From positions 1 through 64,000 of the forward strand of contig NZ_BLAD01000080.1 in the NCBI RefSeq assembly GCF_009687845.1: DNA of 64,000 nt, read 5' to 3'. The position numbers and the translations under genes were made by a program. Source of the stretch: Acrocarpospora corrugata (GTDB taxonomy: Bacteria; Actinomycetota; Actinomycetes; Streptosporangiales; Streptosporangiaceae). The notes under the pieces were generated by a model. It ran no database searches and was not told where the DNA came from. It saw only the letters and a list, made by a program, of their open reading frames with translations. The number at the start of each line of letters is the position of its first letter. Position 1 is the stretch's first letter. This document shows positions 35,710 to 51,947 of the stretch, piece by piece.

Positions 35710-36009
35710 ATGTTCACCACCGTCCGAGTGGCCGGAGATTCGATGTTGCCGGGTCTTCGCCCTGGTGACTGCCTGCTGGTACGGCTCCGCGCCCCGGTCC
35801 GTCCCGGCGATCTGGTCATCGCCCGCCGCCCGCACGGCCTGATCGTGAAGCGCGCGTTCCGCCGTACCGACGGGGGCTGGTGGCTGGAGAGCGACAACCA
35901 GCGGGCCGCGGGACGGCAGGACAGCTGGGACTACGGCGCCGTCCCCGAGCAGGACGTCCTCGGCCGGGTGCTGCTGCGCTACTGGCCGGTCAGGCGTTCC
36001 GCTTCCTAG
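35710..36009 (+). CDS. sodX: Nickel-type SOD maturation protease (S26 family)
   Basis: A 99-aa signal-peptidase-like protein with the catalytic Ser in AGDSMLPGL and the Lys in HGLIVKRAF. It lacks a membrane anchor, fitting the cytoplasmic protease that trims SodN. Divergent from sodN; its 3' end overlaps the convergent CGNR gene by 20 bp. Confidence 0.9.
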   Translation: MFTTVRVAGDSMLPGLRPGDCLLVRLRAPVRPGDLVIARRPHGLIVKRAFRRTDGGWWLESDNQRAAGRQDSWDYGAVPEQDVLGRVLLRYWPVRRSAS

Positions 36010-36517
36010 CTCGGTAGGCGGCCACGTTGGCCCGGCTGGCGCAGCGTTCCGAGCAGTACCGGCGGGACTTGTTGGACGAGGTGTCCAGGTAGGCGTTGCG
36101 GCACGGGGGCGCCTGGCAGATGCCCAGGCGGTCGGGGCCGAGCCCGGTCACCACGCTGGCCAGGCCCATCACCGAGCCGACCGCGACGGCGTCGGCGACC
36201 CGGCCGCCCTCGGTCAGGTGCATATGCCAGGACTGCCCGTCATGACCGGAAATTTGCGGATGCACCGGATGGCGGACCAGTAAACCGTTGAGGCGTTCGA
36301 CCACATCGGCCGCATCCCCCTGCGCGGCCGACTCGAACACCCCGGTGAGCTCTTCGCGGAGTTCGCAAATAGCGTCCAGATCGCGCCGCGTCGCGCGGGC
36401 GGCGGCCTCGGTCCTGCCCGTCTCGGACAGGAGATCGCGAAGCGCTTCGAGGCTCCTCAGCCCGTGCTTCCGGTTGACCAGAAGCACGGCGAGTTCTGCA
36501 TAAGACGTCAGATCCAC
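35990..36517 (-). CDS. CGNR zinc-finger regulator (ABATE/RsmC-like)
   Basis: A 175-aa protein with an N-terminal helical ABATE-like domain and a C-terminal CGNR-type zinc finger (CQAPPCRNAYLDTSSNKSRRYC given as positions about 130-155, with two Cys pairs). It is probably a DNA-binding stress regulator. GTG at 36517 preceded by AAGG is preferred over the long in-frame extension to 36658, which has no family similarity. The 276-bp gap to the malic enzyme gene holds no feature I can name. Confidence 0.8.
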   Translation of the reverse strand: MDLTSYAELAVLLVNRKHGLRSLEALRDLLSETGRTEAAARATRRDLDAICELREELTGVFESAAQGDAADVVERLNGLLVRHPVHPQISGHDGQSWHMHLTEGGRVADAVAVGSVMGLASVVTGLGPDRLGICQAPPCRNAYLDTSSNKSRRYCSERCASRANVAAYRARKRNA

Positions 36518-36793
36518 CGTGAGACCTTGTAAGAAGTGACTCCGGACTTTGAGTATTACATGGTTGAGGAAAGTTCCAAAGGGGTTGTGACGGTGGTAAA
36601 TCTCCCTCCGCTGCTTGGATGCCCCGCCCGGGTGTCGCCATCTCAGCATGTGGCACAATCAACGACACGCGGGTGACCCCCGTACCCCGTCAGGAGACAC
36701 CGTCAACGGCGACGGCGCAGGGGCATATACCCATGCCTGGGCCCTCGTTCTCTTGCGGCGTCTAACGTGCTTTCTAGACAACTGGGGTCATCA

Positions 36794-37969
36794 ATGACTG
36801 CTTCCCTCGAAGCGCTCGATCTTGATCCGGCGTTCGCCCTGCATCGGGGCGGCAAGCTGGAGATCCGTTCCACCATTCCGGTGCGCAACGCGGACGACCT
36901 GGCCTTGGCGTACACGCCAGGGGTCGCGCGGGTGTGCAGCGCCATCGCCGACAATCCCGAACTGGCCCAGGACTACACCTGGACCTCCAACGTGGTCGCC
37001 GTGGTCTCCGACGGCACCGCCGTGCTCGGGCTCGGGGACATCGGCCCGGCCGCCGCCATGCCGGTCATGGAGGGCAAGGCGCTGCTGTTCAAGGAGTTCG
37101 GCGGGGTCGACTCGGTGCCGATCTGCCTGGCCTGCACCGGGGTCGACGAGATCGTCGAGACGGTGGCCCGGCTGGCGCCCTCCTTCGGCGGCATCAACCT
37201 GGAGGACATCAGCGCGCCGCGCTGCTTCGAGATCGAGGAGCGGCTGCGCGCGCTGCTGTCCATCCCGGTCTTCCACGACGACCAGCACGGCACCGCGATC
37301 GTGGTGCTGGCCGCGCTGCGCAACGCCGCCCGGCTGACCGGCCGCCCGCTGTCCGAGCTGCGCGCGGTGGTGGCGGGCGCGGGCGCGTCGGGGGTGGCGG
37401 TCACCCGGATCCTGGTCAACGCCGGGATCGGCGACATCGCGGTGGCCGACAGCAAGGGCCTGCTCTTCGAAGGCCGCGAGGGGATGAACCCGATCAAGGA
37501 CGCGCTGGCCAGGGACACCAACCGGCGCGGGCTGAAGGGCTCCACCGAGCAGGCGCTGGCCGGGGCCGACGTGTTCATCGGGCTGTCCGGCGCGACCGTC
37601 TCCGAGGCGGCCATCGCCGGGATGGCGGCCGGCTCGATCGTGTTCGCGCTGTCCAACCCGACCCCCGAGGTGCACCCGGAGGTCGCCGCCAAGTACGCCC
37701 GGGTGGTCGCCACCGGCCGCTCCGACTTCCCGAACCAGATCAACAACGTGCTCGCCTTCCCCGGCGTCTTCCGCGGCGCGCTGGACGTGCGGGCCACCAC
37801 GATCACCGAGAACATGAAGGTGGCCGCGGCCATCGCGCTGGCCGACGTGGTCGGCGACGAGGTGGCCGCCGACTACGTCATCCCGTCGCCGTTCGACGCC
37901 CGGGTGGCCCCGGCCGTGACCGCCGCGGTGGCCGGCCAGGCCCGGCTCGACGGAGTGGCTCGCAAGTAA
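36794..37969 (+). CDS. NAD-dependent malic enzyme
   Basis: A 391-aa short-form malic enzyme converting malate to pyruvate and CO2. Substrate and metal motifs ([18 protein letters not shown]) and the Rossmann motif GAGASGVA are present. Typical length and end. It lies in the conserved order sodN, malic enzyme found in Streptomyces. Confidence 0.93.
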
Positions 37970-37971
37970 AT

Positions 37972-38002
37972 TTGAGATTCCTTTAACAGAAAGTGCTATA
38001 AC
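37972..38002 (+). promoter_or_regulatory. Candidate promoter for the HTH gene at 38031
   Basis: TTGAGA (37972-37977) and TATAAC (37997-38002) are spaced 19 nt apart in an AT-rich pocket just after the malic enzyme stop. Spacing is long, so this is tentative. Confidence 0.4.
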
Positions 38003-38030
38003 AAAAGCTCTCCGTTACCGGGGGAGAGCG

Positions 38031-39401
38031 ATGCGACGCGAGCCCAATCCGTCATTACACCGGCACATCACCGAGGCGGGCCTGTCCCACAAGGGCCTGG
38101 CCCGCCGTCTGAACGACCTCGGACAGGCCCGTGGCCTGCTCGGTCTCCGGTATGACCACAGTTCGGTGCTGCGCTGGATCAGTGGCCAGCGCCCGCGCGA
38201 CCCCGTGCCGGGGCTGCTCGCGGAGATCCTCTCGCTGCGCCTGGGCCGGCCGGTCTCCGCCGAGGACATCGGTATGCCCCGCGAAGCGACGCCCCTCGAC
38301 CTCGGACAGGAATTCTCCCACTCGTGGCAGGAGGGCGTGCGGATCGTGACAGCACTCTGGCGGGCCGACGTGGAAAGACGCCGGTTCCTGATCGACTCCA
38401 CGTTCGCGATCGGCGCGGGTTCCGCGGGGATCGTGCGCTGGCTGACCTTCCCCGGCGAGGAGCCGTCCCCGGTGGCCGGCAGCCGCCGGGTGGGCGCCTC
38501 GGACGTCGGCGCGATCCGCGAGGTCACGCGGTCGTTCGGGGAGCTCGACAACCGGTTCGGCGGCGGCAGGGTCCGCGCCGCGGTCGTGAAATATCTGGAC
38601 ACGGGGGTGGGGCCGCTGCTGGCCGGCTCGTACGGCGAAGCCACCGGCCGCGCCCTGGCCGGAGCCGCCGCCGAACTCACCCGGCTGGCCGGCTGGATGG
38701 CCTACGACCTGGAACAGCACGGCCTGGCCCAGCGCTACCTGATCCAGGCGCTCCGGCTGGCCCGCCGGGCCGGTGACGACGGCCTGGGCGGCGAGATCCT
38801 GGCCGGGATGAGCCACCAGGCCCTCTACGTCGGCCAGCCCAGGCACGGGCTCGACCTGGCCAGAGCGGCCCAGGTGGCGGCCCGCAGCTCCGGCGTGGCC
38901 GCGCTCCAGGCCGAGGCGTACGCGCTGGAGGCCCACGCGCACGCCCTGCTGGCCGACCCGGCCGCCTGCGCGCACGCGCTGCACGCGGCCGAGCTCGCCT
39001 TCGACCGGCGGGCCGGCGGGAACGAGCCCGAGTGGATCGGCTACTTCGACGAGGCCTACCTGTCGGCCAGGTTCGCGCAGTGTTTCCGCGATCTCGGCGA
39101 TGGGCCGCACGCGGTCAGGCACGCCACCAGGTCGCTGGAGATGGACGGGCGGTACGTGCGCGGCCGGATGTTCAACCTGACCCTGCTGGCCTCCGCGCAC
39201 GTGCTGGCCGGCGAGGTCGAGCAGGCCTGCGTGGTGGCGGTCGAGGCGGTCGCGCTGGGCGAGGGCCTGGAGTCGGCCAGGACCCGCTCCTCGCTGGAGG
39301 ATCTGTGCCGCCGGCTCGGCCCGTACGAGCGGGAACCTGCGGTGGCGGCGGTGCTGGAGACCGGGGTCCGGCCTGGGCCGGACCCCGGGGATGCTACTTG
39401 A
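38031..39401 (+). CDS. HTH-type regulator with TPR-like C-terminal region
   Basis: A 456-aa protein: an N-terminal helix-turn-helix (about 15-70; YDHSSVLRWISGQRPRD) followed by helical repeats resembling TPRs. Actinomycetes have many such proteins; target unknown. ATG preceded by GGGGAGAG. The last 40 bp form a long hairpin that probably doubles as the terminator of the convergent protease P1. Confidence 0.78.
   Translation: MRREPNPSLHRHITEAGLSHKGLARRLNDLGQARGLLGLRYDHSSVLRWISGQRPRDPVPGLLAEILSLRLGRPVSAEDIGMPREATPLDLGQEFSHSWQEGVRIVTALWRADVERRRFLIDSTFAIGAGSAGIVRWLTFPGEEPSPVAGSRRVGASDVGAIREVTRSFGELDNRFGGGRVRAAVVKYLDTGVGPLLAGSYGEATGRALAGAAAELTRLAGWMAYDLEQHGLAQRYLIQALRLARRAGDDGLGGEILAGMSHQALYVGQPRHGLDLARAAQVAARSSGVAALQAEAYALEAHAHALLADPAACAHALHAAELAFDRRAGGNEPEWIGYFDEAYLSARFAQCFRDLGDGPHAVRHATRSLEMDGRYVRGRMFNLTLLASAHVLAGEVEQACVVAVEAVALGEGLESARTRSSLEDLCRRLGPYEREPAVAAVLETGVRPGPDPGDAT
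39361..39388 (-). terminator. Terminator of protease P1, inside the end of the neighbouring gene
   Basis: A perfect 13-bp stem (39361-39373 with 39376-39388) with a 2-nt loop lies 5 bp beyond the P1 stop codon and within the last codons of the convergent HTH gene. Confidence 0.65.
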
Positions 39402-40488
39402 CTTCGGTGAGGCCGAGCGTGCCGTCCTTCTTCACGATCGAGCCCGACCACAGCGGGGCCGCGGCCTTGTAGACGCCGAAGGTCTCGCTGTCGAAGTAGG
39501 GCGAGGTGATCAGATCGCTGCGCAGGTTGCCGTCGGTGTCGCCGCCGAGGCTGGTGACGCCGTTGATGTACCCGAGCCGCCGGTTGGAGCTGTAGCCGAT
39601 CAGCCACGGGCCGCCGGACGCGCCGCCGGTCATCGAACAGCGGAGCGCGACGTGCTCCTCGACCTTCACCGACGACTCCACCAGCGGGTACTGCGTCTTG
39701 CCGTAGCAGTACTTGAGGGTGTGGCCGGTGTAGGCGTAGTCGCCGTCCTCGTGCGCCATCGTCGGGTAGCCGAAGACGTAGGTGGCCTTGCCGACCGCCT
39801 GGTTGTAGGCCAGGCCCTGGCCGCCGACCTTGGCGCCGAGCGGGCCGACATCGATCCACTGGCCCTTGGACCTGGCGATGCCGTTGTAGACGGTGACGAA
39901 AGCGTAGTCGCGGTCGGCGTCCTCGTAGACGTCCCAGTCGTAGTGAGTGAAAGCCTGCTTGCCGATGTAGACGCCCCAGGGCGACTTGCCCTGGTAGTAG
40001 CCGGGCACGAAGATCCACTTGTCGAGGGTGCCGGTGTTGCCCACCGGGTCGTAGACGCAGTGCCCGGCCGTGGCGACCAGGTTCTTGTACGTCGACTGCA
40101 CCGAGGACGCGGAGCAGGAGTAGAGGTCGTCCCCGACCACGAAGAAGACCCGCCCGGTGGACTTGGGCAGGTTGACGTTCTTGGTCTTGGCGGCGGCCGC
40201 GGGGATGTCGGCGGTGGCCGGGACCACCCCGGGCTTGCCGTCGGCGGCGGGCCCGCCGGTGGAGACGTGCTTGGGCACCCGCTTGTGCTCCAGGCCGAAG
40301 GGGTCGGCGGCCTTGAGGTTGGCGCCGCCGTCCGAGGTCCAGAACTCCAGGGTGGCCGCGGCCTGGGCGGGGGTGTTCAGTTTGGCCGAGGTGGTGAACT
40401 TGGGTGCGGCGTTGGCGGCGCCGGTGAACGAGGCGGCCAGCAGGCCGCCCGCGGCCACTAAGCCGCTGACTGCGGTGATGCGCTTCAT
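39394..40488 (-). CDS. Secreted trypsin-like serine protease P1 (intact triad)
   Basis: A 364-aa secreted protease: signal peptide (1-28), a propeptide, then a chymotrypsin-fold domain from about NVNLPKSTGRVFF (104-116). The triad is intact: His143 (TAGHC), Asp194 (DRDYAFV) and Ser291 (GGASGGPW). Disulfide pairs Cys125-Cys144 and Cys261-Cys284 are present. It is the last member of a seven-gene tandem array and lacks the aromatic-rich insertion found in P2-P5. Substrate specificity cannot be read reliably. ATG at 40488 with GAGGAG upstream. Confidence 0.92.
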   Translation of the reverse strand: MKRITAVSGLVAAGGLLAASFTGAANAAPKFTTSAKLNTPAQAAATLEFWTSDGGANLKAADPFGLEHKRVPKHVSTGGPAADGKPGVVPATADIPAAAAKTKNVNLPKSTGRVFFVVGDDLYSCSASSVQSTYKNLVATAGHCVYDPVGNTGTLDKWIFVPGYYQGKSPWGVYIGKQAFTHYDWDVYEDADRDYAFVTVYNGIARSKGQWIDVGPLGAKVGGQGLAYNQAVGKATYVFGYPTMAHEDGDYAYTGHTLKYCYGKTQYPLVESSVKVEEHVALRCSMTGGASGGPWLIGYSSNRRLGYINGVTSLGGDTDGNLRSDLITSPYFDSETFGVYKAAAPLWSGSIVKKDGTLGLTEVK

Positions 40489-40598
40489 TGGGGGGAGAAC
40501 TCCTCAGTCTGTCGTGGTTCGCCTCTTGCGCCCCATACGTCAGAAATGGATCACTGGGAACCTACAACGAGGGCGACGAATCCGTCTAACTGCGCACA

Positions 40599-40628
40599 AA
40601 AGGCCGGGCGACGTCGCGCCCGGCCTTT
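40599..40628 (-). terminator. Terminator after P2
   Basis: Perfect 12-bp stem (40599-40610 with 40617-40628), 6-nt loop, with a T run on the minus strand, 14 bp past the P2 stop. Confidence 0.75.
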
Positions 40629-40641
40629 CGCAAGCAGATCG

Positions 40642-41856
40642 CTACGCGATCGAGCCCGACCAGACGTTCTTGGCCGCGCTGTAGACGCCGTACAGCTCAC
40701 CGTCGAAGTACGGCGAGACCGAGGTGTCGATGCGGTTGTTGCCGTCGGTGTCGGAGACGGCGCTGGTGACGCCGTTCAGGTAACCGAGGCGACGGGTGTT
40801 CTTGTAGCCCGCCAGCCACGCCGAGCCGAGCGAGCCCTGGCCGGTGAAGCTGGACTTGACGCCGATGAGCTCCTCGGCCTTGCGGCTCGCGGCGCTCGCG
40901 GCGAAGGTCTTGCCGTACGACCACTTGAGGGTCTTGCCAGAGAAGGCGTAGTTGCCGTCCGGGTGGGAGCCGCTCGGGTAGCCGAACACGAAGACGGGCT
41001 TGCCGACCGCCTGGTTGTAGGCCAGGCCCTGGCCGCCGACGTTGTCGCCGAGACGACCGGCGTCAGTGAACTTCCGCAGGTAGTACTTGCCACCGTTGGT
41101 CCACTTGAAGCCCGACCAGATGGCCGGGTTGTCGTAGACGGCCTTGGTGACCTCGCGCCAGTCGGTCAGGGTCGCGGACGGCACGAAAGGCGTGCCGGTC
41201 TCGCCCGGCCGGGGGACGTACTTGATGCCGTTGTAGACGGTGACGAACGCGTAGTCGCGGTCGCCGTCCTCGTAGACATCGAAGTCGTAGTGGGTGAAAG
41301 CCTGCTTGCCCACGTACAGGCCCCACGGGACCTTGCCGTCGTAGTAGCCCGGCACGAAGACCCACTGGTCGAGGGTGGCCTTGTTGGTCACCGTGTCGTA
41401 GACACAGTGGCCGGCGGTCGCGACCAGGTTGCGGTAGGTCGACTGCACGGAGGTGGCGGTGCACCAGCGCGCGTCGGGCTTGGTGTCGCTGTCGGAGCCG
41501 TCCGGAACGGTGAAGAACACCTTGCCCTGGGTCTTGGGCAGGTTGACGTTCTTCGACGTGGAGGTGGACTTCTTTTCGTCGCCAATGGCCGGGACGACGC
41601 CAGGCTTGCTGTCGGCCGCCGGTCCGCCTGTGGACACGTGCTTGGCGGTGACCTTGGTCTCCACGTTGTACGGCGTTGCGCCGACGAGGTTCTCCGCCTT
41701 GTTGCCCAGCCAGAAGGCGGCAACGTTGTACGCCGCGATACCGGTGTTCGCCAGCGTGTCGCTGGCGACGTCGGAGCTGGCGGTGGCGGGCTGGCTGACG
41801 ATCGCGGCGGCCAGCAGGCCGGTCACGACGCCACCCAGAGCGAGAGTGCGCTTCAA
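40642..41856 (-). CDS. Secreted protease homologue P2, catalytic serine missing (pseudoprotease)
   Basis: A 404-aa secreted paralogue of P1. His150 (TAGHC) and Asp201 remain, but the GASGG serine loop reads GSLGSAW, placing Leu343 at the nucleophile position. The disulfide flanking the active site is also lost, both Cys replaced by Ser (313, 335). An alternative alignment using Ser342 with an inserted Leu is possible but would disrupt the oxyanion hole. An extra 40-residue insertion lies at about 210-265. The TTG at 41856, preceded by AAGGAG at 7 nt and aligned with ATG in P3 and P4, is the start. The upstream region has a CRP-type box. Confidence 0.9.
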   Translation of the reverse strand: MKRTLALGGVVTGLLAAAIVSQPATASSDVASDTLANTGIAAYNVAAFWLGNKAENLVGATPYNVETKVTAKHVSTGGPAADSKPGVVPAIGDEKKSTSTSKNVNLPKTQGKVFFTVPDGSDSDTKPDARWCTATSVQSTYRNLVATAGHCVYDTVTNKATLDQWVFVPGYYDGKVPWGLYVGKQAFTHYDFDVYEDGDRDYAFVTVYNGIKYVPRPGETGTPFVPSATLTDWREVTKAVYDNPAIWSGFKWTNGGKYYLRKFTDAGRLGDNVGGQGLAYNQAVGKPVFVFGYPSGSHPDGNYAFSGKTLKWSYGKTFAASAASRKAEELIGVKSSFTGQGSLGSAWLAGYKNTRRLGYLNGVTSAVSDTDGNNRIDTSVSPYFDGELYGVYSAAKNVWSGSIA

Positions 41857-42126
41857 GGGGGTTCTCCTTGGTCTGTCGTGGGACACGTCTTGCGTCCCAT
41901 GCGTCAGGAAAGGGATAGCCCGGAACTTATCGTGCGGATCTTGGCCATAGGAACCCGTTCAGAGGGGACCGTGTGACGCCCATGTGCGCTTTATCATTTC
42001 GTGACATGTCAGGATTTCTTGTCAAGTCGTGATGCTAAAGCGACGTTTGTCCAGTTGGTTGACTGGATGATGACCGTGGAGTCCGAGATGGTCCTGTGAC
42101 AAGAGGGGCCGGCGCCGCGTCGGCGC

Positions 42127-42142
42127 TGTGACGCAAATCACA
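42127..42142. promoter_or_regulatory. CRP-type box upstream of P2
   Basis: Perfect TGTGA-N6-TCACA. Its centre is about 278 bp upstream of the P2 start. Confidence 0.7.
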
Positions 42143-42230
42143 GTGCTCAGATGGCACCGATTGGGTGCCTCGTTACGTCTAAGATCGCTCGACTGTTGCG
42201 GATTTCATGATTTATCTGATGATTCCGGGC

Positions 42231-42265
42231 AAAACGAAGGGCCCGGCCGATGGCCGGGCCCTTCG
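42231..42265 (-). terminator. Terminator after P3
   Basis: Perfect 14-bp stem (42235-42248 with 42252-42265) followed on the minus strand by four T; the core GAAGGGCCCGGC recurs in the terminators after P4, P5 and P7. Confidence 0.8.
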
Positions 42266-42283
42266 CTCACTGCTGGCTGAACG

Positions 42284-43465
42284 CTACGCGATCGAGCCGG
42301 ACCACAGGTTCTTGGCCGCGCTGTAGACGCCGTAGGTCTCACCGTCGAAGTACGGGGAGATGCTGGTGTCGTAACGGTTGTTGCCGTCGGTGTCGGAGAC
42401 GCCGATGGTGACACCGTTCAGGTAGCCGAGACGGCGGGTGTTCTTGTACCCGGCCAGCCAGGACGAGCCGAGCGCGCCCTCGCCGGTGAAGGACGACTTG
42501 ACACCGATGAGCTCCTCCGCCTTGATGGCGGCGGCGCTGGCGGCGAACGTCTTGCCGTAGCTCCACTTGAGGGTCTTGCCGGAGTAGGCGTAGTTGCCGT
42601 CCGGGTGCGACCCACTCGGGTAACCGAACACGAAGACCGGCTTGCCGACCTTCTGGTTGTAGGCCAGGCCCTGGCCACCGACGTTGTCGCCGAGGCGGCC
42701 AGCGTCGATCCACTTCCAGACGTAGAACTTGCTGCCGACCTTCCAGCGCGCCCACGGCGAGTACGTGTTGTACACGGCCTCGGTGACCTCGGCGAAGGAG
42801 CCGATGTCGGACGGCTTCTTGATGTCGGCGAAACCACCGTGCGGCAGCTTCAGACCGTTGTACACGGTGACGAACGCGTAGTCGCGGTCGCCGTCCTCGT
42901 ACACATCGAAGTCGTAGTGGGTGAACGCCTGCTTGCCGACGTACACGCCCCACGGGGTCTTGCCCTGGTAGTAACCCGGGACGAACACCCAGCGGTCGAG
43001 CGTGGCCTTGTTGGAAACCGTGTCGTAGACACAGCTACCAGCGGTGGCGACCAGGTTCTTGTAGGCGGCCTGGATCGACGTGGCGGTGCACCAGTGCGGC
43101 TTGAAGTCAGAGCCGAGGAAGAACACCTTGCCCGAGGTCTTGGGCAGGTTGATGTTCTTCGACTTGGCCGTCGACTTCTTCTCGTCGCCGATCGCCGGGA
43201 CGACGCCGGGCTTGCTGTCCGCAGCCGGGCCGCCAGTGGAGATGTGCTTGGCGACGATCTTGGTCTCAACGTCGTAAGGCGTAGCGGCGATCAGGTTGGC
43301 CGCACCTTCGGCAAACCAGAACGCCGCAATGTTCTTGCCAGCGATCGCGGTGGTGGCCAGCGGGGTGCCGACCACGTCACCGGCAGCGCCGGCGGGAGCC
43401 GCGAGGCCGGCTCCGAGGAGGCCGGCGGTGGCGATGACGCCACCAAAGGCGAGAGTGCGCTTCAT
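42284..43465 (-). CDS. Secreted protease homologue P3, His and Ser both missing (pseudoprotease)
   Basis: A 393-aa paralogue with a signal peptide (1-28). The catalytic His is Ser144 (TAGSC), and the serine loop is GALGSSW, placing Leu332 at the nucleophile position and leaving no Ser even in the alternative alignment. Asp195 remains. Both cysteines of the active-site-flanking disulfide are Ser, while the first disulfide is kept. The frame is full length with a good ribosome site, so it is a maintained non-enzymatic protein rather than a decayed gene. A variable insertion spans about 205-252. Its 3' end is identical to P4 for 174 bp. Confidence 0.92.
   Translation of the reverse strand: MKRTLAFGGVIATAGLLGAGLAAPAGAAGDVVGTPLATTAIAGKNIAAFWFAEGAANLIAATPYDVETKIVAKHISTGGPAADSKPGVVPAIGDEKKSTAKSKNINLPKTSGKVFFLGSDFKPHWCTATSIQAAYKNLVATAGSCVYDTVSNKATLDRWVFVPGYYQGKTPWGVYVGKQAFTHYDFDVYEDGDRDYAFVTVYNGLKLPHGGFADIKKPSDIGSFAEVTEAVYNTYSPWARWKVGSKFYVWKWIDAGRLGDNVGGQGLAYNQKVGKPVFVFGYPSGSHPDGNYAYSGKTLKWSYGKTFAASAAAIKAEELIGVKSSFTGEGALGSSWLAGYKNTRRLGYLNGVTIGVSDTDGNNRYDTSISPYFDGETYGVYSAAKNLWSGSIA
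42287..42460. repeat. 174-bp tract identical to 43950-44123
   Basis: Base-by-base comparison shows identity between the 3' coding end of P3 and that of P4 across 174 bp, ending sharply on the inner side. This indicates recent duplication or gene conversion. Confidence 0.85.
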
Positions 43466-43733
43466 GGGGGAACTCCTTGGTCTGTCGTGGAACGCCTCAT
43501 GCGTCCCATGCGTCAGGAAAGGGATAGCCCGGAATTTACAGTGCCGATCTTGGGAACGGGTAGTCGTTCGGGGGTGCCCGGAAGGCCCCGGATTCCCGTT
43601 ACGGTTCCGTGATCAGTCAGGCGGGGTGGTCAAGCTGTGATGCCGCAGCGACGTTTGGCCAGATCATTGACTGGATTTACGGACGGTGGGGTGGTGCACG
43701 GGGAGGCGCGGGGTGCCCGCGAGGTTTACGCGA

Positions 43734-43749
43734 TGTGACGTAAATCACA
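43734..43749. promoter_or_regulatory. CRP-type box upstream of P3
   Basis: Perfect TGTGA-N6-TCACA. Its centre is about 276 bp upstream of the P3 start. Confidence 0.7.
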
Positions 43750-43862
43750 GTTTCCAAATGGCACCGCAGGAGCGATCCAGGCGTCTAAGGCCCCTCCCAG
43801 CACTCTCCCCAGAGGTCCCCAGAGGGCTCCCCGGAGATTCCCAGCCGGGCCCCGACAACAAT

Positions 43863-43890
43863 GAAGGGCCCGGCCAAGGCCGGACCCTTC
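43863..43890 (-). terminator. Terminator after P4
   Basis: 13-bp stem with one mismatch (43863-43875 with 43878-43890), 2-nt loop; same GAAGGGCCCGGCC core as the P3 terminator. Confidence 0.7.
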
Positions 43891-43931
43891 AGAGTGTGGT
43901 GTCAGTCAGGTTCCAGTAACCCGACCCCGTC

Positions 43932-45176
43932 CTAGCTGTAGGACGGAACCGCGATCGAGCCGGACCACAGGTTCTTGGCCGCGCTGTAGACGCCGTAGGT
44001 CTCACCGTCGAAGTACGGGGAGATGCTGGTGTCGTAACGGTTGTTGCCGTCGGTGTCGGAGACGCCGATGGTGACACCGTTCAGGTAGCCGAGACGGCGG
44101 GTGTTCTTGTACCCGGCCAGCCACGACGAACCGAGCGAGCCCTCGCCGGTGAAGGACGACTTGACCCCGATGAGCTCCTCAGCCTTGATGGCCGAAGCGC
44201 TGGCAGCGAAGGTCTTGCCGTAGCTCCACTTCTGGGTCTGGCCGGAGTAGGCGTAGTTGCCGTCCGGGTGCGACCCGCTCGGGTAACCGAACACGAAGAC
44301 CGGCTTGCCGACCTTCTGGTTGTAGGCGAGGCCCTGGCCACCGACGTTGTCGCCGAGACGACCAGCGTCCTCGAACGCCCAGACGTAGTACTTGCCGTTG
44401 AAGAACCAGCAGTAGTAGCCCTTCTCCTTCCACGCGTACGGGAAGTTGTCGTAGACAGCCTTCGACACTTCCTTGTACCCGCCCAGTACGGCGCTGCCGT
44501 CGTGCAGGCCCTTGACGCCGTTGTAGACGGTGACGAACGCGTAGTCGCGGTCGCCGTCCTCGTAGACGTCGAAGTCGTAGTGCGTGAAGGCCTGCTTGCC
44601 CACGTAGATGCCCCACGGGGTCTTGCCCTGGTAGTAACCCGGGACGAAGATCCAGTTGTCCATCGTGGACTTGTTGCCGACGGTGTCGTAGACGCAGCTA
44701 CCCGCGGTGGCGACCAGGTTCTTGTACGCCGACTGGATCGACGTAGCGGTGCACCAGTGCGGGTTCTTCGCCTTCTTGTACCAGCGGTTCTCGGTGTTGG
44801 GCACCTTGACCCACTCGTACCCGTCGCTGAAGAACACCTTGCCCGTGGTCTTGGGCAGGTTGATGTTCTTCGACTTCGAGGTGGTCTTCTTCTCGTCGCC
44901 GATCGCCGGGACGACGCCGGGCTTGCTGTCCGCAGCCGGGCCGCCGGTGGAGATGTGCTTGGCGACGATCTTCGTCTCCACGTCGTAAGGCGTGGCAGCG
45001 ACGAGGTTGGCCGCGCGCTCGGTGAGCCAGAACGCGGTGATCTCGTACGCGGCGAGACCGGTGTTGGCCAGCGGGGTGCCGACCACGTCACCGGAGGCCT
45101 GGGCGGGGGCGGCGAGGCCCGCGGCCAGGAGGCCAGCGGTGGCGACAACGCCACCAAAGGCGAGAGTGCGCTTCAT
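43932..45176 (-). CDS. Secreted protease homologue P4, His and Ser both missing (pseudoprotease)
   Basis: A 414-aa paralogue most similar to P3, with nearly the same signal peptide. The catalytic His is Ser160 (TAGSC) and the nucleophile position is Leu348 (GSLGSSW); Asp211 remains; both active-site disulfide cysteines are Ser. It has an extra insertion after KVFF (about 117-140), a Trp/Tyr-rich variable insertion (about 221-270), and a five-residue C-terminal extension (VPSYS) relative to P3. ATG at 45176 with AAGGAG upstream; the longer frame to 45296 covers the conserved leader and is not coding. Confidence 0.92.
   Translation of the reverse strand: MKRTLAFGGVVATAGLLAAGLAAPAQASGDVVGTPLANTGLAAYEITAFWLTERAANLVAATPYDVETKIVAKHISTGGPAADSKPGVVPAIGDEKKTTSKSKNINLPKTTGKVFFSDGYEWVKVPNTENRWYKKAKNPHWCTATSIQSAYKNLVATAGSCVYDTVGNKSTMDNWIFVPGYYQGKTPWGIYVGKQAFTHYDFDVYEDGDRDYAFVTVYNGVKGLHDGSAVLGGYKEVSKAVYDNFPYAWKEKGYYCWFFNGKYYVWAFEDAGRLGDNVGGQGLAYNQKVGKPVFVFGYPSGSHPDGNYAYSGQTQKWSYGKTFAASASAIKAEELIGVKSSFTGEGSLGSSWLAGYKNTRRLGYLNGVTIGVSDTDGNNRYDTSISPYFDGETYGVYSAAKNLWSGSIAVPSYS
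43950..44123. repeat. 174-bp tract identical to 42287-42460
   Basis: Partner of the identical tract in P3; lies within the 3' coding end of P4. Confidence 0.85.
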
Positions 45177-45453
45177 GGGGGAACTCCTTGGTCTGTCGTG
45201 GAACGCTTCTTGCGTCCCATGCGTCAGGAAAGGGATAGCCCGGACCATATCGCGCGGATCTTGGGAACGATAAGCCGATCGCCGGAGTCGGATCATTACG
45301 CTGAGTACCCGAGATATTCCCGTTATTCAGTTGACTGCCGGAAAAACTATTGGTTTGCCCGGTGCTGGCGGTATTTGGGCAGCTGAATGGCCTGGTGAGG
45401 CTCCCCGGGGCCCAGGGGCAGGTGAGGCCGCTGTGGAACGGGCCACTTTCGAG

Positions 45454-45469
45454 TGTGACGCAGATCACA
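45454..45469. promoter_or_regulatory. CRP-type box upstream of P4
   Basis: Perfect TGTGA-N6-TCACA. Its centre is about 285 bp upstream of the P4 start. Confidence 0.7.
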
Positions 45470-45555
45470 CAACCTATAGAGGCCCTGTCGTTTGAGCGAG
45501 CCCTTTGGTTTACCTGGTTTTACGCCAATTTTTCTGAGTCAAAAGTCAGGGCATG

Positions 45556-45596
45556 CGAAGGGCCCGGCTTGGTGTGCGCCGCAGCCGGGCCCTTCG
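45556..45596 (-). terminator. Terminator after P5
   Basis: Perfect 14-bp stem (45556-45569 with 45583-45596) with a 13-nt loop, sharing the GAAGGGCCCGGC core. Confidence 0.7.
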
Positions 45597-45619
45597 GTCT
45601 CTGGGGTTATCTGGGGTTG

Positions 45620-46807
45620 TTACGCGATGGAACCCGACCACAGGTTGGCCGCGTGCTTGTAGATGTCGTAGGTCTCCCCGTCGAAGTACGGCGAGAGGCT
45701 GGTGTCGATCCGGTCGTTGCCGTCGGTGTCGGAGACCGCGGCCGTCACGCCGTTCAGGAAGCCGCGGCGGGTGCTGTTGCTGTACTTGTAGAGCCAGGCA
45801 GAGCCCGACGAGCCCTCACCGGTGAAGCTGCACTTGATGCCGAGCAGCTCCTCCGCCTTGATGGCGGCGGCCGAGGCGCCGAAGGTCTTGCCGTAGCACC
45901 ACTTCTGGGTCTGGCCGGAGTAGGCGTAGTTGCCGTCCGGGTGCGAGCCGCTCGGGTAGCCGAACACGTAGTCGCTGACGGTGCGGCTCTGGTTCCAGGC
46001 GATGCCCTGGCCGCCGACGTTGTCGCCGAGGCGGCCGGCGTCGACGAACTTCCAGATGTAGTACTTGCTGCCGACCTTCTTGGTGTAGTGGCTGACCACC
46101 CACGGGTTGCTGCCGTAGCTGCGGTACTTGTCGTACTCGGTCTTGCTGACCTGCTTCCAGTCGCCGTCGACCGGGCCGCCGCTGTGCGGGGCCTTCAGGC
46201 CGTTGTAGACCGTGACGAAGGCGTAGTCGCGGTCGAAGTCCTCGTACACGTCGAAGTCGTAGTGGGTGAAGGCCTGCTTGCCCACGTAGATGCCCCACGG
46301 GGTCTTGCCCTGGTAGTAGCCGGGCACGAAGATCCAGTACTTCATGGTGGCCGCGTTGGACTCGGTGTCGTAGACGCAGTGGCCGGCCGTGGCGACCAGG
46401 TTGCGGTACTTGGACTGGAGCGAGGTGGCGGTGCACCAGTGCGGGTTCTTGTCGGCGTCCAGGAAGAAGACCTTGCCGGTGGTCTTGGGCAGGTTGACGT
46501 TCTTGGAGCTGGTGGGGCCGGCGCCGCCGATGGGCTCGACCTTGCCGGGCTTGCCGTCGGCGGCCGGGCCGCCCTTGGAGAGGTGCTTGGCGACGACCTT
46601 CGTCTCCACGTCGTAGGGAGTGGCCGCGAGGAGGTTGGCCTTACTCTGCGCGTACCAGAAGGCGACGACGTTCCAGGCGGCGATGCCGCTGCCGGCCAGC
46701 GGGTCGGCGGCGACGTCGTCGGCGGCCGCGGCGGGGGAGACCAGCGCGGCGCTCAGTAAGCCGGCTGACGCGGTGAGGAGGACGAGGTTCTTCGCACGGG
46801 TGTGCAT
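45620..46807 (-). CDS. Secreted protease homologue P5 (triad present, altered serine loop)
   Basis: A 395-aa secreted paralogue intermediate between the active and inactive members. His143 and Asp194 are present and the nucleophile loop is GSSGSAW, keeping Ser334 but with Gly-Pro changed to Ser-Ala. The active-site disulfide (Cys304, Cys326) is retained. It carries the variable aromatic insertion (about 203-256) seen in P2-P4. ATG at 46807 has AAGGAG 4 nt upstream. It follows P6 by only 73 bp and may share its transcript. Activity is uncertain. Confidence 0.9.
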   Translation of the reverse strand: MHTRAKNLVLLTASAGLLSAALVSPAAAADDVAADPLAGSGIAAWNVVAFWYAQSKANLLAATPYDVETKVVAKHLSKGGPAADGKPGKVEPIGGAGPTSSKNVNLPKTTGKVFFLDADKNPHWCTATSLQSKYRNLVATAGHCVYDTESNAATMKYWIFVPGYYQGKTPWGIYVGKQAFTHYDFDVYEDFDRDYAFVTVYNGLKAPHSGGPVDGDWKQVSKTEYDKYRSYGSNPWVVSHYTKKVGSKYYIWKFVDAGRLGDNVGGQGIAWNQSRTVSDYVFGYPSGSHPDGNYAYSGQTQKWCYGKTFGASAAAIKAEELLGIKCSFTGEGSSGSAWLYKYSNSTRRGFLNGVTAAVSDTDGNDRIDTSLSPYFDGETYDIYKHAANLWSGSIA

Positions 46808-46880
46808 GGGACTCCTTCAAGCCAGAGGGTGTGCTGGGATGAAGGTAAAGACCAGCGCCTTCAAGTGGCTTGCAGACCAC

Positions 46881-47936
46881 TTACCCGGTGGCCTGTTTGG
46901 CCGCCTCGTTGTAGACCCGCTGGGTGATGGCGTTGAAGAACGGCGTCGAGATCGCGTCCAGCCGGCCGTCGCCGTTGACGTTCCAGGTCAGGCTGGTCAC
47001 GCCGTTGAGGAACCCGGTCCGCCTGGCCCGGTCGTAGTTGAGCACCCAGGGGCCGCCGCTGGCCCCGGCGGTGAAGCCGCAGGAGCGCAGCAGCACGCCG
47101 TGGCTGAGCAGGTAGGTCGGCGCGGTCACGTACTTGCGGTCGGTGACCCCGCTACAGGCCCGGACCGCCTGCCCGTTGTACGGCCGGCTCCCGTCCGGAT
47201 GCGCCCCCGCCGGGTAGCCGAACGCGTTGACCGCCAGCGAGGTGCCCTTCGTCGCGGCGAATCGGAACGCGCCAACCTTGTCCTCCAGGCGGCCGACGTC
47301 GGTCCGCTGATAACCGCCCGAGGTGGTCTTCCAGGTGAAACCGCGGTGCACGGTGACGAACGCGTAGTCCCGGTCGAAGTCGCCCTTGCCGGGATAGTCC
47401 AGGTGCAGGAAGAGGGTGTGGCCGACGTAGATCCCGGCGTCGGTGCTGCCGTTGGCGTACGACGGGATGAAGATCCAGTTCTCCACCGGGCGGTTCTGCG
47501 GGAGCGAGTAGCCGCAGTGGCCGGCGGTGGCCACCAGGTTGCGGTTCTTGGAGTGCACCACCGAGCCGGAGCACCAGTACTCCTTGGCGCCGAGCTTGAA
47601 GAAGACCTTGCCGACCATGGGCGGCTCGCCGGGCTCCTTCTTCTTGGGAGCCTTGGCGGCTCTCTTGCCGGACGGCACGACCTCGGCGATCGAGGGGGCG
47701 GCCCGCGCGCTGGCGGAGGGCTTGGTGCTCGGCACGTACGTGCTCGCCGACCTGAGGCGTTCCGGCGTCCAGTACGCGGCGATCCGCTGCATCTCGGCGC
47801 TGGAAGAGCCGAGCGGGTACGTCACCACGTCGCCTGGAAGCTGGGTCTGGGGAGCCTGCGCGAGGGCCGGTCCCGACGCCACGAGCACGGCGGCCACGCT
47901 CACGCCGAGGGCGGTGAGGGGGGTTCGCCTGGACAT
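46881..47936 (-). CDS. Secreted trypsin-like serine protease P6 (intact triad)
   Basis: A 351-aa protease with a signal peptide (1-26), a Lys/Pro-rich propeptide segment (about 85-108) and an intact triad: His140, Asp190, Ser293 (TAGASGGPW). It is the most divergent array member, with a changed region before the serine loop and no variable insertion. ATG at 47936. It is probably the first gene of a P6-P5 unit. Confidence 0.9.
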   Translation of the reverse strand: MSRRTPLTALGVSVAAVLVASGPALAQAPQTQLPGDVVTYPLGSSSAEMQRIAAYWTPERLRSASTYVPSTKPSASARAAPSIAEVVPSGKRAAKAPKKKEPGEPPMVGKVFFKLGAKEYWCSGSVVHSKNRNLVATAGHCGYSLPQNRPVENWIFIPSYANGSTDAGIYVGHTLFLHLDYPGKGDFDRDYAFVTVHRGFTWKTTSGGYQRTDVGRLEDKVGAFRFAATKGTSLAVNAFGYPAGAHPDGSRPYNGQAVRACSGVTDRKYVTAPTYLLSHGVLLRSCGFTAGASGGPWVLNYDRARRTGFLNGVTSLTWNVNGDGRLDAISTPFFNAITQRVYNEAAKQATG

Positions 47937-48011
47937 CGGGGGGCCTTTCCGCTGGTGATATCGATCGTAAGGGGTGATTTTTCCAGATCAACAGGTGTTC
48001 GGCACACCTTC

Positions 48012-48036
48012 TTGGCCTTCTCGTTATGAAACAACG
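48012..48036 (-). promoter_or_regulatory. Shared upstream motif before P6
   Basis: On the minus strand GTTTCATAACGAGAAGG lies about 80-100 bp upstream of P6. A similar GTTTAACGAGAAAGG lies 90-113 bp upstream of P7 (49805-49828). Conservation at the same distance suggests a common promoter or operator. Confidence 0.4.
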
Positions 48037-48126
48037 GGAACCGAACGAGACTGGACTGCGTCAGATTTCCCCATGGTGCGGAGTGGGCGCTTGATCATCC
48101 TGTGACCCGGGGAGATCGTTGCGCTC

Positions 48127-48561
48127 ATGATCAAGCCGTCTGGCGGCCGTCTGGCCGCCCTGCTCGCCGCCACCATCATCGCGACCTGTACGGCGGCCAC
48201 GCCGCCGCCAGCGGTCCAGCCTGATATCTCCGCTGATAGCGCGCTACCCGGAAAAGTCAGGGCTTTCGTCCTCACCATCGCCAAATCCGACTCCCGGCGG
48301 CCGTTCACCCGGGTGGCGCTGTTGGCCTGCTCGCCGCCGCGCGGCACCCACCCCAAAGCCGCGGAGGCGTGCGCCAAACTGGCCAAGGTCAGGGGGGACC
48401 TCTCCGTGCTGGAGCCGGACGGCACCGTCTGCACGCTGATCTTCGATCCGGTCACGGTCACCGCCACCGGCAGCTGGGATGGTGGAACGTTCTCATTCGA
48501 GCGTACCTACGGGAACGCGTGCGAACTGCGCGCGATGACCGGCCCGATCTTCGACTTCTGA
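48127..48561 (+). CDS. Subtilisin-inhibitor-like (SSI family) secreted protease inhibitor
   Basis: A 144-aa secreted protein with a signal peptide, then an SSI-family domain. The four conserved cysteines (Cys68-Cys82 and Cys102-Cys132), the GTHPKAAEACAKL segment, FDPV after the reactive loop, and the terminal IFDF all match Streptomyces subtilisin inhibitors. By alignment the reactive-site P1 residue is Leu104 (CTL before IFDPV), suggesting chymotrypsin- or subtilisin-like targets. It is encoded on the plus strand between P6 and P7, opposite to the proteases. ATG at 48127 has GGGGAG about 12 nt upstream. Confidence 0.9.
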   Translation: MIKPSGGRLAALLAATIIATCTAATPPPAVQPDISADSALPGKVRAFVLTIAKSDSRRPFTRVALLACSPPRGTHPKAAEACAKLAKVRGDLSVLEPDGTVCTLIFDPVTVTATGSWDGGTFSFERTYGNACELRAMTGPIFDF

Positions 48562-48568
48562 CAGCGCG

Positions 48569-48600
48569 AAGGGCCCGGCTCAGGCGAGCCGGGCCCTTTT
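48569..48600. terminator. Bidirectional terminator between the inhibitor gene and P7
   Basis: Perfect 13-bp stem (48569-48581 with 48586-48598) followed by T on the plus strand; serves both convergent genes and has the array's GGGCCCGGC core. Confidence 0.8.
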
Positions 48601-48617
48601 TGGTCGCTATCGATGGA

Positions 48618-49715
48618 TCACTGGGTCCACCGGTTGGCCGCGACCTTGTAGACGTCGTAGGTCTCGCTGTTGAAGTACGGCGAGGACAGACGGTCGTACC
48701 GGTCGTTTCCGTCGGTGTCCCAGGCGATGCTGTTGACACCGTTGAGGTAGCCGGTGCGGCTCTTGCTCTTGTAGTTCAGGAGCAGGGGGCCGCCGCTGGC
48801 GCCCGCGGTCATGCCGCACTTGATCCCGATGTGCTCCTGCACGTTGAACTTGGCAGCAGCCGGCATCGGCGCGGTCTTGCCGTAGCACCACTTCATCGTC
48901 CGCCCGGTGAAGGGACGGTCGCCGTCGGGGTGCGGGCCCGCGGGGTAGCCGAAGGAGAACACGGTGACCTTGGTGCTGCGGTTCCAGGTGAAGCCCTGGC
49001 CGCCCACGTTGTCACCGAGCCGTCCGACCGGCGTCTTGGTGAGCTTCCCCTTGTCCCAGCTGACCTTGAATCCGGAGGCGACGTTGACGAACGCGTAGTC
49101 GTAGTCGAAGTCCTCCTTCACCACGAAGTCGTCGTGCGCCTGGTACCACTTGGCGGGGTAGATCCCGTACGGGGTCTTGCCCTCCCAGGCCTGGTTCCCA
49201 TCCCAGTACGACGGGATGAAGATCCAGTTGTCGTAGAACCGGTTGCTGGCGGGGTCGTACACGCAGTGTCCCGCGGTGGCGACGACGTTGCGGTACTTGC
49301 CCTGCAGCGAAGTACCCGAGCAGTACTTCCAGCTCTTCGGGTCGAAGGGGTTCTTGCCCGGCAGGGTGAAGAACACCCGGCCGACCGTGTTGGGCAGGTT
49401 GACCTGCTTGCTCTTGTTGGACGTCTTCGCCTCGCCGCCGATCGGCGGGACCAGGCCGGGCTTTCCGTCCGGCTCGGCCGAGCTGGGCTGGCCGGAACCC
49501 TTGACGGAGTTGCCCAGTTCCTCGGTGCGGTCCTTGGCCGCCCGAAGCCGCTCGGGCGTCCAGAACGCGGTGGCCGCGTCCGCGGTGGTGACGGCCGCCT
49601 TGGCGGTGACGTCCTGGGGGTCGGTCGCGGCGGCGGAGGTGCTGGCGCCGACGACGCCGAACGCGACCAGCGCGCCGGCGACGGGGATTGAGATACGCCG
49701 TGCTCGGGAGATCAA
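48618..49715 (-). CDS. Secreted trypsin-like serine protease P7 (intact triad)
   Basis: A 365-aa protease with a signal peptide (1-30) and intact triad: His150, Asp206 (DYDYAFV), Ser307 (TAGASGGPL). Both disulfides are present. It shares GRLGDNVGGQG with P2-P5 but has no variable insertion. The start is TTG at 49715 with AAAGGAG 5 nt upstream. It is the first gene of the array in the direction of transcription. Confidence 0.92.
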   Translation of the reverse strand: MISRARRISIPVAGALVAFGVVGASTSAAATDPQDVTAKAAVTTADAATAFWTPERLRAAKDRTEELGNSVKGSGQPSSAEPDGKPGLVPPIGGEAKTSNKSKQVNLPNTVGRVFFTLPGKNPFDPKSWKYCSGTSLQGKYRNVVATAGHCVYDPASNRFYDNWIFIPSYWDGNQAWEGKTPYGIYPAKWYQAHDDFVVKEDFDYDYAFVNVASGFKVSWDKGKLTKTPVGRLGDNVGGQGFTWNRSTKVTVFSFGYPAGPHPDGDRPFTGRTMKWCYGKTAPMPAAAKFNVQEHIGIKCGMTAGASGGPLLLNYKSKSRTGYLNGVNSIAWDTDGNDRYDRLSSPYFNSETYDVYKVAANRWTQ

Positions 49716-50100
49716 TGTGACTCCTTTCTTAACGAGTCCCGCGTGCTTGGACGGGCCGCGCGGGCACCCACCAGGGCACCGTCGTCGCGGCGATCCACCT
49801 CACGCCTTTCTCGTTAAACAGTTGGGACGAATTCGAGGGCACGTCCCAATCCAGAGGAAACGCATAGAACGTTAATGACCGTTCGCCGCGTCCGGCGCAG
49901 CTATAACGAGAAGGCTCCGCTTGGTGGCCCTTCCGTTATTCATAACCCCCGGTTATGAATTGTTCTCGCAGGTCACAGGCCTACCGGGAATCGGTTGACA
50001 AGTTATTCCGGGCCGGTCTCCATCGATTTCCATCCCGCTGGCAACAGGCGTCCCAAAAGTTTTGGTTGCCAGCCGCGCGCCGAAGGACCATGATTTCGCT
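49716..50100. other. Divergent promoter region of P7 and the 50101 gene
   Basis: No gene is visible. It contains the P6/P7-type motif (49805-49828, minus), the same TAACGAGAAGG core on the plus strand at about 49904-49914, and a perfect 10-bp inverted repeat with 3-nt spacer (49938-49960) that may be an operator or hairpin. Confidence 0.55.
49938..49960. repeat. AT-rich perfect inverted repeat
   Basis: ATTCATAACC, then CCC, then GGTTATGAAT. An AT-rich palindrome in GC-rich DNA between divergent genes, so probably a protein-binding site. Confidence 0.65.
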
Positions 50101-50955: not shown

Positions 50956-50964
50956 TGTTCTGGC

Positions 50965-51927: not shown

Positions 51928-51947
51928 GTGAAGATTTACTTGGATAT

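Follow-up and report, generated by a model that had tools for sequence, protein, structure and literature searches.

Why would a bacterium keep, side by side, several protease genes whose products lack catalytic residues? The question is raised by a 64,000-nucleotide stretch of Acrocarpospora corrugata DNA (contig NZ_BLAD01000080.1, positions 1 to 64,000), referred to here as the window. It carries a tandem array of seven minus-strand paralogues, P1 to P7, two more than the five (P1 to P5) named in an earlier note on this DNA; all seven are open, in frame and alignable. We propose, with a probability of roughly 0.8, that P2, P3 and P4 are pseudoproteases with the AL20/Anisep-like S1 fold, which would carry out no cleavage by the serine mechanism and would be kept for binding. 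The computed basis of this reading is triad loss, an S1 fold in the model, purifying selection, syntenic retention and a conserved folded leader ahead of the genes.

Catalytic residues and cysteines

The paralogues and the codons at the place of the catalytic Ser are as follows; proteins lacking catalytic residues are called dead for short.

39394..40488, minus strand: P1, triad-bearing S1-type peptidase (H143, D194, S291), leader present
40642..41856, minus strand: P2, dead, Ser replaced by Leu, His and Asp retained, second Cys pair gone
40828..40830, minus strand: codon of the P2 Leu at the catalytic-Ser place (353 from GTG, 343 from TTG), by alignment
42284..43465, minus strand: P3, dead, Ser replaced by Leu and His by Ser, second Cys pair gone
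42470..42472, minus strand: codon of P3 Leu332 at the catalytic-Ser place, by alignment
43932..45176, minus strand: P4, dead, Ser replaced by Leu and His by Ser, second Cys pair gone, S1 fold in the model
44133..44135, minus strand: codon of P4 Leu348 at the catalytic-Ser place, by alignment
45620..46807, minus strand: P5, triad residues retained, oxyanion loop extended by a Glu (TGEGSSGS), of doubtful activity
46881..47936, minus strand: P6, triad-bearing S1-type peptidase
48618..49715, minus strand: P7, triad-bearing S1-type peptidase

P6 and P7 are thus two further intact paralogues at the end of the array. The earlier note had claimed that Leu stands at the catalytic-Ser place in P2, P3 and P4, that TAGHC has become TAGSC (His to Ser) in P3 and P4, and that both cysteines of the second pair have become Ser in all three proteins while the other pair is kept. 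The alignment bears out each of these points, and the frames of P2 to P4 are preserved, as it also said. The triad places are H160/D211/L353 in P2, counted from a GTG at 41886; the TTG at 41856, which follows AAGGAG, is the likelier start and gives Leu343, the number used in the earlier note. They are S144/D195/L332 in P3, S160/D211/L348 in P4 and H143/D194/S334 in P5. S144 of P3 and S160 of P4 were set from the alignment and the cysteine positions, as the automatic His column caught an earlier TAG there. At the second pair, KWCYG...KCSFT of P5 reads KWSYG...KSSFT in P2, P3 and P4; the first pair (WC..TAG.C) is intact in these three. The residue preceding the Leu is Ser in P2 and P4 and Ala in P3. 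Measured against the His-Asp-Ser triad of an active S1 peptidase, P2 lacks Ser, and P3 and P4 lack both Ser and His; all three are protease homologues without catalytic residues, which is what is meant by a pseudoprotease.

P5 keeps H, D and S, and its oxyanion loop has the same one-residue insert (Glu) as that of the dead genes, with GS replacing GG. Its near relative in A. macrocephala has Q-S-S at the triad places, and H-N-S is found at four Herbidospora loci. Since His or Asp has been lost in 5 of 27 P5-like rows of the survey described below, P5 may be inactive as well.

Predicted fold of the dead proteins

Structure prediction, which the earlier note had named as a check, was done for P4 and gave an S1 fold. 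The AlphaFold2 model, based on 98 window and locus sequences (predicted local distance difference score 84.7, predicted template-modelling score 0.84), has the chymotrypsin double beta-barrel of the S1/PA clan in its AL20/Anisep branch. Its best solved match is Anisep 3wy8 (Z 28.3, root-mean-square deviation 2.2, 217/219 residues), followed by AL20 3cp7, and therefore the predicted barrel is retained without the triad in P4. In the sequence alignment, Leu348 of P4 falls on the Ser of 3wy8. A modelled Nonomuraea protein with Asp at the Ser place has the same two structures as its top matches.

AL20 and Anisep have the same fold as the paralogues and are their nearest solved relatives by sequence and structure; P1 and P5 to P7 have Cys at the same four places as these two. 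They differ from the dead proteins in that both have TAGHC and GSSGG, whereas P2 to P4 lack the Ser and the second Cys pair, and P3 and P4 the His too. Domain libraries add little. P3, P4 and P5 match no Pfam family at E 1; against the gathering cut-offs of Pfam Trypsin and Trypsin_2, P6 alone passes (Trypsin, 28.6 vs 20.6) and P2 stays under; and NCBIfam gave nothing usable for the paralogues.

Distribution of the losses in the family

Relatives were drawn from 61 named loci, from loci elsewhere in the same genome and from the window, giving 343 domain hits. The survey consists of the 317 rows in which all three triad columns are filled; the 26 partial hits were dropped. The Ser place holds Ser in 113 rows, Leu in 92, Asp in 89, Ile in 14, Ala in 5, Asn in 2, and Phe and Gly in 1 each, and 204 of the 317 rows are Ser-less. 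The His place holds His in 270 rows, Ser in 43, Arg in 2, and Gln and Asn in 1 each; the Asp place holds Asp in 261, Asn in 55 and Ser in 1. In 31 rows, 25 from Herbidospora and 6 from Microtetraspora, no triad residue is left. Of the two Cys pairs, the first is found in 314 rows; the second is present in 182, absent from 135 and never reduced to a single Cys. Across the relatives, this pattern of triad and Cys losses goes beyond chance.

His is lost in 46 of the 204 Ser-less rows vs 1 of the 113 Ser-bearing rows, and the comparison of rows therefore suggests that, as a rule, Ser was lost before His. The proposal that P2, which keeps its His, represents an earlier step than P3 and P4 is in line with this order.

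Ser and the second Cys pair occur together in 99 rows. The pair is absent in the 107 rows with Leu, Ile or Phe at the Ser place, and the Asp rows divide into 80 with it and 9 without; 8 rows are of other kinds. The paired loss of Ser chemistry and disulfide, which the earlier note had taken as meaningful, does not stand as a rule: disulfide loss as a general companion of Ser loss is ruled out by 14 rows that have Ser without the pair and by the 80 Asp-type rows that have the pair without Ser. A test of Ser against disulfide on independent pairs found just 4 pairs on starred branches, which is too few.

It could be argued that the dead proteins are enzymes of another kind, in which catalysis has passed to a different residue or pocket, for instance the Ser that precedes the Leu, or the Asp found in the Nonomuraea type. 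The strong conservation of the dead group would fit such a role, as would the presence of Asp in 80 of the 83 rows in which the Ser is gone and the second Cys pair remains. However, the neighbouring position holds Ala in P3, so the neighbouring Ser is unlikely as a nucleophile for the group; that it might serve as one had been named in the earlier note as a ground for refutation, and it was examined here by alignment. Moreover, the 31 Herbidospora and Microtetraspora rows are without any triad residue, and in the Leu/Ile/Phe type the Ser place is nearly always Leu or Ile (106/107, with one related row having Ala). We regard other catalysis as improbable.

The Asp-bearing proteins form a second dead type (GADGG, GYDGG), found at the Nonomuraea loci L050-L076 (e.g. 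L056:7938-14696), in which the Cys pair is mostly kept. Several of them are about 500 amino acids long and have a long additional stretch separating the Asp part from the Ser part. A third odd type adjoins the P1-like gene and has an altered and shortened Ser loop (SRTADGSSW, PVAGSSW); its members are:

L031:11201-12385
L033:6661-7872
L038:10107-11378
L068:8178-9344
L020:14226-15533

Two near relatives from different species of Sphaerimonospora, L045:7863-9164 and L046:7920-9158, have CC and SS, respectively, at the second pair, and Ser in both.

Location of the array and copies elsewhere in the genome

A malic-enzyme gene borders the array at one end; at the other, a single gene that has no Pfam match separates it from a zinc-binding dehydrogenase gene. 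Within the extent of the contigs, relatives of these flanking genes lie beside arrays in Acrocarpospora, Herbidospora, Microbispora, Microtetraspora, Sphaerimonospora and Nonomuraea; at the Planotetraspora loci, neither flank gene is within reach. The array thus occupies one syntenic place in several genera. At this place dead genes are of the Leu type in some genera and of the Asp type in Nonomuraea, and Herbidospora holds both. In a 97-row tree, the P1-like, Asp-type and Leu-type rows fall in one 80-row clade (95, starred; a quick tree with long-branch warnings).

Among the 46 loci with at least four full members (two pairs of which come from one contig each), an intact enzyme is present in 45 and a dead member in 45. 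The dead block is unbroken in 34 of the 44 loci that hold both kinds. L044, L063 and L068 repeat the contigs of L019, L022 and L023.

The A. corrugata genome (9.27 Mb) has 15 family members. One of them, L112:5797-6696, ends before the Ser part and appears truncated. Five dead members are dispersed, the first three of them with a leader:

L107:6270-7778
L108:6613-8178
L109:6152-7735
L011:733-2559
L111:5985-7172

One loss or three

The earlier note had read the changes in P2, P3 and P4 as coordinated losses. Three independent coordinated losses are unneeded, given the following two results. First, the approximately unbiased (AU) test accepts an 89-row tree in which 42 Leu/Ile rows are constrained to a single clade (p-AU 0.678; the constrained tree gains 20.1 log units over the unconstrained one). 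These 42 are the Leu/Ile rows without the second Cys pair, and an Ala row of the same clade was left outside; the tree omitted L020_14226, L047_3602, L019_13020 and L023_3236 as long or odd, and the loci L011, L012, L014 and L015. In the quick tree the P5 clade is nested within the Leu clade, a nesting that the AU test does not require. The Leu/Ile-type sequences would thus fit one old loss of Ser, the AU result being no proof of one clade. Second, third-position identity between P3 and P4 is 0.81-1.00 in the last four alignment blocks vs 0.58-0.86 before, and the two genes, which together occupy 42284-45176, have probably been made near identical in their last third by recent gene conversion. 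Because of the one-clade result and this homogenisation, the common Leu and Ser-Ser of P2 to P4 are best read as inherited. On a FastTree of all 317 rows the minimum number of changes is 12 for the nucleophile class, 7 for the Cys pair, 13 for His and 12 for Asp, direction not being inferred.

Selection and conservation

The ratio of nonsynonymous to synonymous change (omega) was computed by NG86 with our own script over the mature region of Acrocarpospora orthologue pairs. Omega is 0.28-0.46 for P2 (6 pairs), 0.30-0.48 for P3 (3 pairs) and 0.38-0.52 for P4 (6 pairs). The intact P1 gives 0.27-0.50 (6 pairs), and P5, P6 and P7 give 0.15-0.38, 0.15-0.33 and 0.16-0.32 (10 pairs each). The bootstrap 95th percentile reaches at most 0.70 among the 15 P2-P4 pairs and 0.77 overall (P7).

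Conserved columns were compared at 95% identity between 102 dead Leu/Ile rows, from genera having P1 orthologues, and 21 P1 orthologues; in this comparison the P1-, P6- and P7-like rows were sorted by loop pattern and not by tree. In the dead group and the P1 orthologues, respectively, the conserved columns number 10/43 and 11/43 in region 28-70, 20/35 and 19/35 in region 71-105, 62/99 and 58/98 in region 106-220, and 48/77 and 39/76 in region 269-345. Mean pairwise identity is 0.718 in the dead Leu/Ile rows, 0.743 in the P1 orthologues, 0.836 in the P7-like and 0.600 in the P6-like rows. The level of conservation in the Leu/Ile dead group is thus close to that of the intact P1 orthologues. 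The rows of the Leu/Ile/Phe group also have in common one inserted residue in the oxyanion loop (Glu in 86, Gln in 20 and Lys in 1 of the 107 rows). A family protein scan at E 0.001 found a match in 271 of 297 genomes, many of them weak, and no internal stops among the matches listed.

These values bear on the simplest alternative, in which P2 to P4 are relaxed or decaying duplicates in a copy-making array, kept similar by gene conversion. The tandem arrangement, the late rise of P3/P4 third-position identity and the truncated L112 are what such decay would produce. Against it, omega and its bounds stay below 1, the dead genes are conserved across genera and open among the matches listed, and they keep a conserved leader and terminator-like stems; decay is therefore very improbable. 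The view of the earlier note that these genes are dead yet selected is upheld by the omega values, by a degree of conservation near that of intact P1 and by the S1 fold of the P4 model, and rows of the Leu/Ile kind without Ser and Cys pair are indeed retained across genera. It is very likely that P2 to P4 are dead, under selection and hence presumably expressed.

The 5' leader RNA

P1 to P4 share a 5' leader of about 60 nucleotides, with a covarying hairpin adjoining the ribosome-binding site; a block common to the upstream regions of P2, P3 and P4 extends as far as that site.

45173..45250, minus strand: P4 leader, its last 4 bases being the first of the gene
43462..43539, minus strand: P3 leader
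41853..41930, minus strand: P2 leader
40489..40565, minus strand: P1 leader, a weaker match (E 3.7e-12) outside the 71 model-building leaders
43862..43891, minus strand: terminator-like stem-loop 3' of P4

The covariance model was built from 71 leaders hand-picked from 104 non-redundant ones. Of the 16 pairs they have in common, 6 show changes of both partners, and 97.1% of the cells are paired vs 26.6-56.0% in controls slid by 1-3 columns. The control slid by +1 has 18 both-sided cells vs 16 in the structure, but in 3 pairs vs 6 and with 43.2% of cells paired. None of 500 shuffles attains the observed values, by a tool that has caveats. In the short outer helix, the CUU of the conserved ATCCCTTT pairs with the AAG of the ribosome-binding site; this helix has zero both-sided changes, its support being invariance and wobble. 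Folded one at a time, the three leaders from the window exceed shuffles by a modest margin (z -2.18, -1.60 and -2.67, equalled by 7, 15 and 4 of 200 shuffles). A DNA operator in place of an RNA hairpin is less likely, because in the main helix 52 cells are G-U or U-G vs 8 that are A-C or C-A (cells, not events). Rfam gave no match above the gathering score in 36000-52000, and the 4 weak matches that it gave at E up to 1 within 40400-45400 all lie outside the leaders.

The leader is closely tied to the family. A search of the 9.27 Mb genome with the model at E 0.1 gives 7 matches. Four stand in front of P1 to P4 and three in front of dead copies at other places, so that all 7 precede family members, six of them dead; the other 8 of the 15 members are without it. 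In 22 chosen family genomes it occurs in 20, with 110 matches in total, and 40 of these were examined with their downstream DNA, selected mostly for other contigs or distance from the main array. All 40 encode a family member whose frame opens at the leader. Under stricter filters, an even draw of family genomes has the leader in 120 of 297 genomes (24 of 68 genera), and a class-wide draw in 11 of 296, all 11 being Streptosporangiaceae. The block precedes dead genes in every genus where dead rows turned up, and in 134 of 145 cases its distance to the beginning of the aligned domain is 60-69 bases.

By class of gene (4 of the 317 rows, near contig ends, were left out), the leader is found before 98/107 Leu/Ile/Phe, 49/89 Asp, 6/8 other dead and 11/27 P5-like genes; for intact genes the counts are 20/22 P1-like and 4/60 others. 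A looser pattern count has a background of 46 in 2000 random stretches. Of 208 leader matches, 20 are unassigned and were attributed by eye to partial genes, contig ends and repeated contigs. In its conserved structure, compensatory changes and fixed place before genes, the leader has the features of a cis-regulatory structured RNA. Since a single clade contains the P1-like, Asp and Leu rows, it probably existed before the catalytic deaths, and its upkeep after them argues for expression of the dead genes.

Terminator-like stems similar to that behind P4 stand in the P2-P3 and P4-P5 gaps, and the dead genes may accordingly be transcribed singly. A sigma-70 scan of the minus strand over 39300-50100 found no promoter; a TAnnnT box ahead of the leader was read by eye. 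The leader would control translation, perhaps by partial closure of the ribosome-binding site, a role to which we give somewhat less than even odds.

Known systems

To our knowledge, few bacterial pseudoproteases have a known job, MamO of magnetotactic bacteria being the one case found. MamO is reportedly of the HtrA type and located in the membrane. A serine-protease homologue whose active site is degenerate, it promotes MamE-dependent proteolysis, MamE being a related protease, and binds a transition metal (PMC4794232). Like it, P2 to P4 are bacterial serine-protease homologues with a degenerate site; unlike it, a metal-binding protein of magnetosome formation (PMC4794232), they are AL20-like, have signal-like N-termini and occur in arrays with a common leader RNA.

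The inactivated protease paralogues of scabies mites are likewise, by the titles on them, multi-copy serine protease pseudoenzymes, but they are mite proteins and those titles concern complement and clotting. No common descent with P2 to P4 is claimed for them beyond the S1 fold. In prokaryotes, a 2008 survey counted 42 putative inactive homologues among 966 serine proteases of 91 genomes, and its passages that were available do not mention the AL20/Anisep-like family (PMC2605481). Pseudoproteases as a kind and inactive prokaryotic serine-protease homologues are thus already known; the arrays, the loss of catalysis by two routes at a single locus and the leader reserved for this family set the present case apart as a variant. 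Among the titles that an open library gave for the terms used, none describes this pseudoprotease family or its leader. The arrays offer a natural series from intact to triad-less proteins in one fold, beside triad-bearing enzymes and tied to a leader RNA of their own. With them, two questions become testable in soil actinomycetes: which function a protease fold can serve once catalysis is gone, and what it is that the leader reads.

Possible roles of the dead proteins

Taken together, the array is best read as a conserved, probably secreted pseudoprotease system with its own leader RNA. By eye, the dead proteins have a Sec-type signal (a basic start, a hydrophobic stretch and AxA) and would be exported by it. 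Outside the cell they could bind substrates, inhibitors or the intact P1, P6 and P7, and so tune their action. By analogy, they might act as a regulator or cofactor of the intact paralogues; this is a tentative assignment, favoured because MamO is the nearest precedent, and we rank it first, with a surface or matrix role and a decoy role close behind. The triad-bearing paralogue that a MamO-like activator would need is at hand in the same locus in 45 of the 46 larger loci, and is missing for the dispersed members of this genome.

In a surface or matrix role, the fold would have become a structural unit of hyphae or spores, adhesive or Ca-binding, with no relation to proteolysis. The signal-peptide-like N-termini (by eye), the many copies, the acidic loop DTDGNxRxD and the formation of spores in the genera surveyed all agree with it. 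However, the loop also occurs in the intact paralogues and is not peculiar to the dead ones, and no anchor motif was seen by eye, no dedicated motif search having been made; we hold this role to be unlikely. Slightly less likely again is that the dead proteins are decoys, which mimic the outside of the intact proteases and absorb their inhibitors or attackers. P1 and P2 to P4 do have the fold and many motifs in common, and dead and intact genes stand side by side in 44 of the 46 larger loci; but the oxyanion-loop insert of the 107 rows and the Leu or Ile at the Ser place suggest that the very site a canonical inhibitor would read has been remodelled.

Several observations weigh against binding pseudoproteases working beside intact paralogues. 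An intact gene lies inside the dead block in 10 of the 44 loci holding both kinds, and the five dispersed dead members of this genome are each the sole family match of their contig. No row with the P1-like loop was found among the Nonomuraea rows surveyed, and therefore P1 is not a general partner of the dead proteins; no analysis made here points to a binding partner. The omega medians of P3 (0.46) and P4 (0.44) exceed those of P1 and P5-P7 (0.24-0.36), and region 346-410 is less conserved in the dead Leu/Ile group (34/64) than in P1 (44/64). The leader is missing from two Leu/Phe members in this genome and from seven in Herbidospora, and its sharing between P1 and the dead genes can be a matter of plain descent.

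The pseudoprotease reading could be extended to a family-wide secreted system of the Streptosporangiaceae, in which the middle genes of the array died by two routes (Ser to Leu/Ile and Ser to Asp), spread to further loci, and act in trans on the intact paralogues, their translation gated by an undescribed, dedicated class of leader RNA. We consider this full picture doubtful.

Neighbouring gene and acidic loop

A gene at 38031-39401 on the plus strand adjoins P1 and is a possible regulator. It has no Pfam match at E 0.001, and its relatives adjoin array loci in some Acrocarpospora, Microbispora, Sphaerimonospora and Nonomuraea. The acidic loop DTDGNxRxD, which looks calcium-binding, is conserved in all seven paralogues, dead and intact (e.g. 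P4 residues 374-384, by eye); P6 carries a variant of it, also read by eye.

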